From: Alphaproteobacteria bacterium
Lineage (GTDB): Bacteria; Pseudomonadota; Alphaproteobacteria; UBA9219; RFNS01
Assembly: GCA_016124955.1 (NCBI GenBank)
Contig: WGMR01000002.1
Span: 1 to 64,000, forward strand
DNA length: 64,000 nucleotides
Direction of reading: 5' to 3'
Shown one piece after another: positions 1,173 through 1,368 of the stretch. The notes beneath the pieces were generated by a model. The model was given only the letters and a program-made list of their open reading frames with translations. It had not been told where the DNA came from and did no database searches. The position numbers and the translations under genes are program-made. The first letter of the stretch is position 1. Each line of letters opens with the position of its first letter.

Positions 1173-1368
1173 TGTCGCGGGATGGAGCAGCCCGCCACAG
1201 CAAAGGCCGCAAGGCCGGAGCGTCTATATTAGGCTACCGGGCTCCATACGGTAGCATCGTGTCGCGGGATGGAGCAGCCCGCCACAGCAAAGGCCGCAAG
1301 GCCGGAGCGTCTATATTAGGCTACCGGGCTCCATACGGTAGCATCGTGTCGCGGGATGGAGCAGCCCG
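1173..1368 (+). repeat. 87-bp tandem repeats built from the tRNA-fMet 5' end
   Basis: Two identical 87-bp units (1173-1259 and 1260-1346) are followed by a third, partial copy (1347-1368) that is the start of the real tRNA gene. Each unit begins TGT plus the first 19 nt of tRNA-fMet and then has 65 bp of other sequence. That 65 bp contains a GGCC-GCAA-GGCC mini-hairpin and GCTACCG...CGGTAGC (1233-1255 in unit 1). The segment GCTACCGGGCT (1233-1243) is the exact reverse complement of tRNA nucleotides 14-24, and a further CCAT continues the match after a 3-nt gap. The array lies inside the predicted transcribed leader. It is not CRISPR: only two units, identical spacers and a tRNA-derived repeat. 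Confidence 0.95.

Follow-up and report, generated by a model that had tools for sequence, protein, structure and literature searches.

The window analysed here is a stretch of 64,000 nucleotides, the start of contig WGMR01000002.1 in an alphaproteobacterial assembly (GCA_016124955.1), read on the forward strand. Positions 1173-1346 are occupied by two direct repeats of 87 bp, 100% identical, which adjoin the gene for the initiator tRNA, tRNA-fMet (anticodon CAT). Each unit opens with TGT and nucleotides 1-19 of this tRNA, exactly as the original prediction had described, and a third 22-nt copy (1347-1368) is the start of the real tRNA gene. Upstream of the array, the end of an rRNA operon (3' part of the 23S gene, then 5S) is followed by a strong terminator-like hairpin (Table 1).

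The other 65 bp of each unit had been regarded as unique sequence. They proved instead to follow a conserved arrangement of hairpins, A-rich linker and antisense: each spacer contains two hairpins and an 11-nt segment, GCTACCGGGCT, that is the complement of tRNA nt 14-24 (window 1363-1373) and is called anti-D below.

The 87-bp unit matched only the array itself in the 1.93-Mb assembly, and a pattern for the 5' half of tRNA-fMet likewise gave a single match; the array therefore appears to sit upstream of the sole initiator tRNA gene of the genome. Chance is excluded as its origin, because an exact 22-nt match occurs three times at 87-bp spacing with no other copy in the genome, and because relatives share the layout with different spacers while reversed control patterns gave no matches, either in genomes of the order or in the class sample. 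As the contig starts within the 23S gene, the number of units in it could be a matter of assembly.

When relatives were searched with the unit alone, two were found to carry units upstream of an intact tRNA-fMet: G020 has two non-identical units of ~102 bp and G012 has one. The pattern copy, gap, tRNA was matched in 6 of the 33 genomes of the window's order, belonging to three families. The number of units in relatives ranges from one to at least three. Together with the two identical units here, this makes slippage, one of the origins suggested in the original prediction, or unequal exchange the probable route of expansion.

In a scan of 84,980 species, with one genome per species, the same arrangement was present at 54 loci, essentially all of them in Alphaproteobacteria. 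They include Novosphingobium and other Sphingomonadales, Marinicaulis, Parvularculaceae, Hirschia, Robiginitomaculum, Kordiimonas, Limimaricola, Yoonia, HIMB11, Ciceribacter, Paenochrobactrum and Magnetovibrio; the remainder are a metagenome-assembled genome (MAG) called Rickettsiales and MAGs of Alphaproteobacteria or Proteobacteria. One record labelled Bacteroidetes is probably a misplaced contig, since its unit is nearly the same as the one in HIMB11. Only 2 of 385 evenly drawn class genomes had the arrangement, so its occurrence is patchy, and among Novosphingobium loci with enough leader about one in six had a unit. A class-wide search with a covariance model (see below) came out nearly empty, but only 11 candidates were scored per genome and the result is therefore no valid negative. 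Searches of phages, plasmids and viral contigs with the unit returned ordinary tRNA-Met genes or nothing. Rfam 15, at gathering and relaxed thresholds, recognised only rRNA and tRNA in the window and 19 related loci, and a description of fMet leader units was not found in the open-access literature.

Units were extracted and folded (64, of which 58 were distinct). The copy consists of tRNA nt 1-19, nearly always followed by C, so that nt 2-6 pair with nt 16-20 in a first hairpin (SL1). Next come a second hairpin (hairpin I) whose sequence varies greatly, a linker rich in A (58%) and a third hairpin (hairpin II), which precedes a short leader (GGTGA, TTGG or TGT) common to the unit and the real tRNA. 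Whole units measure about 81-113 bp in every lineage. In the 21 Sphingomonadales units 12 of the 23 pairs are changed on both sides and 92.5% of cells are paired; slid registers of the three-hairpin model come nowhere near these values. A covariance model (R1) trained on the Sphingomonadales units alone scored the units of the window at 34.1 bits and those of several other orders at 45-60 bits; a tRNA 5' end by itself scored 18 bits.

Where the tRNA sequence is variable, copies match the tRNA of their own host (nt 7 in 62, nt 9 in 64 and nt 16 in 63 of 64 units), and gene conversion, a recent origin or constraint could each account for this. In some diverged units the copy has drifted yet the stem of SL1 is intact (L141, with GCAGG/CCTGC, and the distal unit of L153). 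Units of Rhodobacterales and Hirschia also copy the anticodon arm of the tRNA (CTCGTCAGGCTCATAACCTGA), after the second hairpin. At five loci of these groups (L042, L043, L060, L067 and L025) the sequence copied besides nt 1-19 comprises the 3' strand of the D-stem and the anticodon arm with CAT. A variant unit of 113 bp, with a 20-nt copy and a different insert, was seen in another alphaproteobacterial family (L078, genome G371).

Across the units the insert holds GCTNCCGGGCTG, the complement of tRNA nt 13-24, and of these nt 20-24 are absent from the copy; GCTNCCGG or a close variant is present in 34 of 50 units. The longest complement between insert and tRNA averaged 8.4 nt, compared with 5.8 nt after shuffling, and was centred at nt 15-20. 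For sense matches to the tRNA the insert showed no excess over the shuffle control (6.0 against 5.9 nt). Anti-D of at least 8 nt was found in 30 of 56 inserts, compared with 1 of 40 unit-free leaders and 2 of 54 leaders lying 5' of the first copy; the Fisher P of 2.5e-8 for units against unit-free leaders is only indicative because the species are related. The three leaders that have it resemble additional or decayed units and, as judged by these comparisons of sequence, anti-D is a property of the units. At L046, a locus whose copy differs from the tRNA, the antisense matches the real tRNA over 11 nt and the copy over only 8 nt.

Other tRNAs were examined as a control, and similar modules were found at some of them. 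In the window's own genome tRNA-Gly(TCC) (L170/L223, G000:C10:34754-34907) is preceded by an 80-bp unit copying its own nt 1-17. Like the fMet copy, this one stops at the first of the two D-loop G residues, and CCCGC comes next, closing a similar hairpin; no such unit was found at Gly-TCC in the 384 other class genomes. Also in this genome, the 3' end of tRNA-Gln(TTG) recurs about 60 nt downstream of that tRNA (L186, G000:C5 near 15150), and between the two lie a 13-nt antisense of the T-arm (anti-T) and a GC hairpin. Among the other tRNAs of six genomes of the order, a 3' copy was present at 11 of 172 and a 5' copy at 2 of 172. Most of the 3' units (at Lys, Gly, Tyr, Gln, Asp and Met) have, in order from tRNA to copy, T-arm antisense, linker and GC hairpin. 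Anti-T of at least 9 nt in the T-arm window accompanied 7 of 10 tRNAs with a 3' copy and 4 of 156 without one (Fisher P 6e-8), and at least two of these four resemble units in decay. In Marinicaulis flavus, Cys and Ser have 3' units of a similar kind whose antisense is shorter. In the cultured genomes G413 and G416 most 5' and 3' matches were ordinary tandem tRNA genes. Downstream of tRNA-His(GTG) in G020 lies what seems to be a second tRNA-His, disrupted by an insertion but with its 3' end intact (L306).

The original prediction placed the units in the leader of the tRNA precursor, where they would add extra tRNA 5' ends. This placement is probable; any role in the leader is predicted only. 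A strict promoter scan of the window sequence found no promoter between terminator and array; the weak candidate in Table 1 was read by eye. TTGACA-type sequences occupy the same relative place in relatives of family f3. In the fMet leaders of that family (L128-L135) the promoter-like sequence is followed by one similar to CAACGCCTCTTT, resembling a boxA antitermination signal. An open frame of 66 aa (1172-1372) spans both units, which it can run through because 87 is 3 x 29, and encodes basic 29-aa repeats. It has no Pfam match and is probably due to chance, though reminiscent of tpr in the tyrT repeats discussed below.

Table 1 Features of the tRNA-fMet leader region (positions in the window)
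Feature	Position	Strand	Basis or remark
5S rRNA, end of upstream rRNA operon	899..1013	+	Rfam RF00001, 92.8 bits
Terminator-like perfect hairpin, between 5S and array	1052..1083	+	14-bp perfect inverted repeat; terminator scan site 1063-1077
Weak candidate promoter for tRNA-fMet	1102..1130	+	TTGCCA (1102-1107), 17 nt, TATGAA (1125-1130); read by eye
Repeat unit 1, 87 bp	1173..1259	+	100% identical to unit 2; RNA model R1, 34.1 bits
Copy 1 of tRNA-fMet nt 1-19	1176..1194	+	C1195 completes SL1 (1177-1181 paired with 1191-1195)
Unit 1 hairpin I	1200..1221	+	Predicted fold; equivalent Sphingomonadales helix shows compensatory changes
Unit 1 hairpin II	1233..1255	+	Predicted fold; 5' arm 1233-1243 (GCTACCGGGCT) is the anti-D segment
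Repeat unit 2, 87 bp	1260..1346	+	Direct repeat of unit 1; RNA model R1, 34.1 bits
Copy 2 of tRNA-fMet nt 1-19	1263..1281	+	SL1: 1264-1268 with 1278-1282
Unit 2 hairpin I	1287..1308	+	Predicted fold, by register
Unit 2 hairpin II	1320..1342	+	Anti-D segment at 1320-1330
tRNA-fMet	1350..1426	+	ARAGORN and Rfam; 5'-half pattern matches once in assembly

Units are either cleanly present or cleanly absent. The leaders of sister genomes show exact presence or absence of a unit (L123 compared with L124 and L122), and one genome (G441) has two fMet loci with identical 109-bp leaders, one filled and one empty, although both lie near contig ends and assembly could be involved. In arrays of several units the distal ones have diverged more than the one next to the tRNA (L033, L153).

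The reading that we tentatively prefer is that of a tRNA-end repeat module acting in RNA, with its copy number set by recombination, in a transcribed leader whose precursor can adopt competing folds. Recombination between identical copies would change the number of units and remove them. A unit transcribed within the pre-tRNA leader could then act through its antisense, which would seize the D-arm of the tRNA, while the outer copy would replace the native 5' strand of the acceptor. The precursor would thus have two competing folds; RNase P could mature one of them into tRNA-fMet, the other would be blocked or cleaved at the decoy end, and their competition would modulate the output of initiator tRNA. 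The anatomy of the units, their recurrence, the joint occurrence of copy and antisense and the clean presence or absence are observations; the role through alternative folding and tRNA maturation is what we infer.

Predicted equilibrium folds, in which anti-D pairs with the D-arm of the tRNA and the outer copy often takes the 3' acceptor strand, suggest such a precursor. In a first folding control the median for the native acceptor was 0.93 without a unit, 0.00 with the unit and 0.21 with a fully shuffled unit. The RNA role is favoured because the layout is held across orders, the antisense at L046 fits the real tRNA better than the copy, and closely spaced direct repeats have persisted.

Several points weigh against it. 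When the copy was kept and only the insert dinucleotide-shuffled, the native acceptor value was 0.16 overall, compared with 0.14 for the real insert, and in units with long anti-D it was 0.11 compared with 0.055. The argument from folding energy is therefore weak, and the claim of an RNA role is not rested on energies. One clade of Sphingomonadales preserves hairpin II through compensatory changes while its complementarity to the D-arm is down to about 6 nt, and pairing of the anti-D base opposite tRNA nt 21 is not constrained. Most relatives do without a unit and, as G441 has both a filled and an empty locus, the unit is dispensable. In addition, the counts across species are not phylogenetically independent.

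Nearly as likely is a by-product of events at the DNA level. tRNA genes have ends and stems that favour fold-back, and template switching during replication, or slippage, would there yield end copies, inverted segments and hairpins with no function for the RNA structure; the units would be short-lived, homogenised by gene conversion and lost by recombination. Dispensability and patchiness favour this view, with which the clean presence or absence, the variable number and the greater divergence of distal units also agree. Both tRNA ends share the outward order flank, antisense, linker, hairpin and copy, and the linker is A-rich in the 5' units (58%) but T-rich in five of the 3' kind (57%), as though a single DNA pattern could lie on either strand, although two Marinicaulis 3' units lack the T-rich linker. 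Template switching within hairpins can by itself maintain the complementarity of their arms. What a by-product explains less well is that fMet units of many orders have one copy boundary and one three-hairpin layout with wholly different sequences in hairpin I, and that anti-D is retained where the surrounding sequence has changed. Direct repeats of 20-30 bp lying so close together should also vanish quickly unless they are retained.

It is unlikely that the units are structural leaders and nothing else, with hairpins that insulate or stabilise a 5S-to-tRNA-fMet precursor and a copy that arose by accidental tandem duplication and was kept as a stable hairpin. Unit-free leaders often have a hairpin and then GGTGA before the tRNA, the leader hairpin and hairpin II of the unit are near copies at L143, and the pairing of SL1 persists in diverged units, all as such an explanation would have it. 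It gives no account, however, of why antisense is present in units and absent from unit-free leaders, or why the same design recurs at the 3' ends of other tRNAs.

Partial tRNA copies are known to arise widely from the integration of mobile elements (PMC9897764), and the array shares with such fragments a partial copy and a direct repeat beside the intact gene; its empty sites are also precise. A remnant attachment site of an integrative element targeting tRNA-fMet is nevertheless improbable. The 5' end is copied and not the 3' part of the tRNA, the insert is 65 bp, with usually <100 bp between copies and short units in every lineage, and it contains hairpins and antisense. The nearest genes encode a rhodanese-like protein and a metallo-beta-lactamase-fold protein, no integrase was seen nearby and no recombinase was among the neighbouring proteins tested, and phage and plasmid records match nothing beyond the tRNA region.

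An intron-like insertion in the D-loop, with the outer copy and tRNA nt 20-77 as exons and the unit removed from the RNA, has very little probability. Predicted folds often pair the outer copy with the 3' acceptor strand, and both the fMet and the Gly-TCC copies stop at the first of the two D-loop G residues, but the unit is too short for self-splicing and has no Rfam intron match, the inner tRNA is complete and has no need of splicing, and splicing as supposed would leave a D-stem disrupted by the antisense. The assembly artefact allowed for in the original prediction, to which the contig edge within the 23S gene and the exact repeats might point, can be dismissed almost entirely, as non-identical units with the same layout occur in many independent assemblies, including those of cultured strains.

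Two other kinds of element invite comparison. RPE-type repeats of Alphaproteobacteria and REP elements are also short, gene-less and hairpin-forming, but they are dispersed families of similar sequence, whereas the window unit occurs only at the array in 1.93 Mb and most relatives' units have hairpin sequences of their own. As in 1-2-3 attenuators and riboswitch leaders, anti-D could find its partner either upstream or downstream; unlike in these, the element controlled would be the tRNA fold itself, no terminator or ligand is evident and the pairing is predicted only.

The original prediction knew of no described element of this kind. Besides the 54 loci found here, a described analogue exists in the tyrT/tyrV locus of E. 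coli, which has 178-bp repeats with the rttR RNA and the tpr reading frame. To our knowledge the function of these repeats is still unclear. Annotation and sequence of the tyrT-tyrV region (L324, NC_000913.3) were read here: a 3' copy lies 158 nt downstream of tyrT, hairpins are present, and the spacer holds, before the 3' copy, an exact 10-nt antisense of the T-arm of tRNA-Tyr (TCGAAGGTTC, shuffle P 0.01). Both systems thus consist of tandem units joined to a tRNA, each with an exact copy of a tRNA end and internal hairpins, with antisense to an arm at the copy boundary (11-nt anti-D here, 10-nt anti-T in tyrT) and a reading frame through the repeat (66 aa here). They differ in that the window units copy the 5' end and the tyrT repeats the 3' end, in length (87 against 178 bp) and in the absence from the window unit of sequence homology and of an Rfam match. 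The tyrT region lies downstream and the window units upstream of the tRNA, so that RNase P would be concerned here and not 3' processing. By analogy, the feature in the window can be read as a 5' mirror image of the tyrT repeats in design, but it is outside the tyrT class by the usual definition because the other end is copied and sequence homology is lacking. That both belong to a general class in Proteobacteria, in which at many tRNA genes a copy of either end and an antisense to the arm next to it switch the precursor between the native fold and a trapped one that employs the outer copy, and so tune maturation, with the fMet units and tyrT as members, is a more doubtful proposal.

If the units are a mutational by-product, they still point to a recurrent DNA process that copies tRNA ends together with an inverted segment. 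If they are functional, they would represent a new kind of cis regulation, in which tRNA production is controlled by a decoy and an antisense of that very tRNA; in the window's genome it would bear on what is apparently the sole initiator tRNA gene, and it would also suggest an explanation for the tyrT repeats of E. coli.
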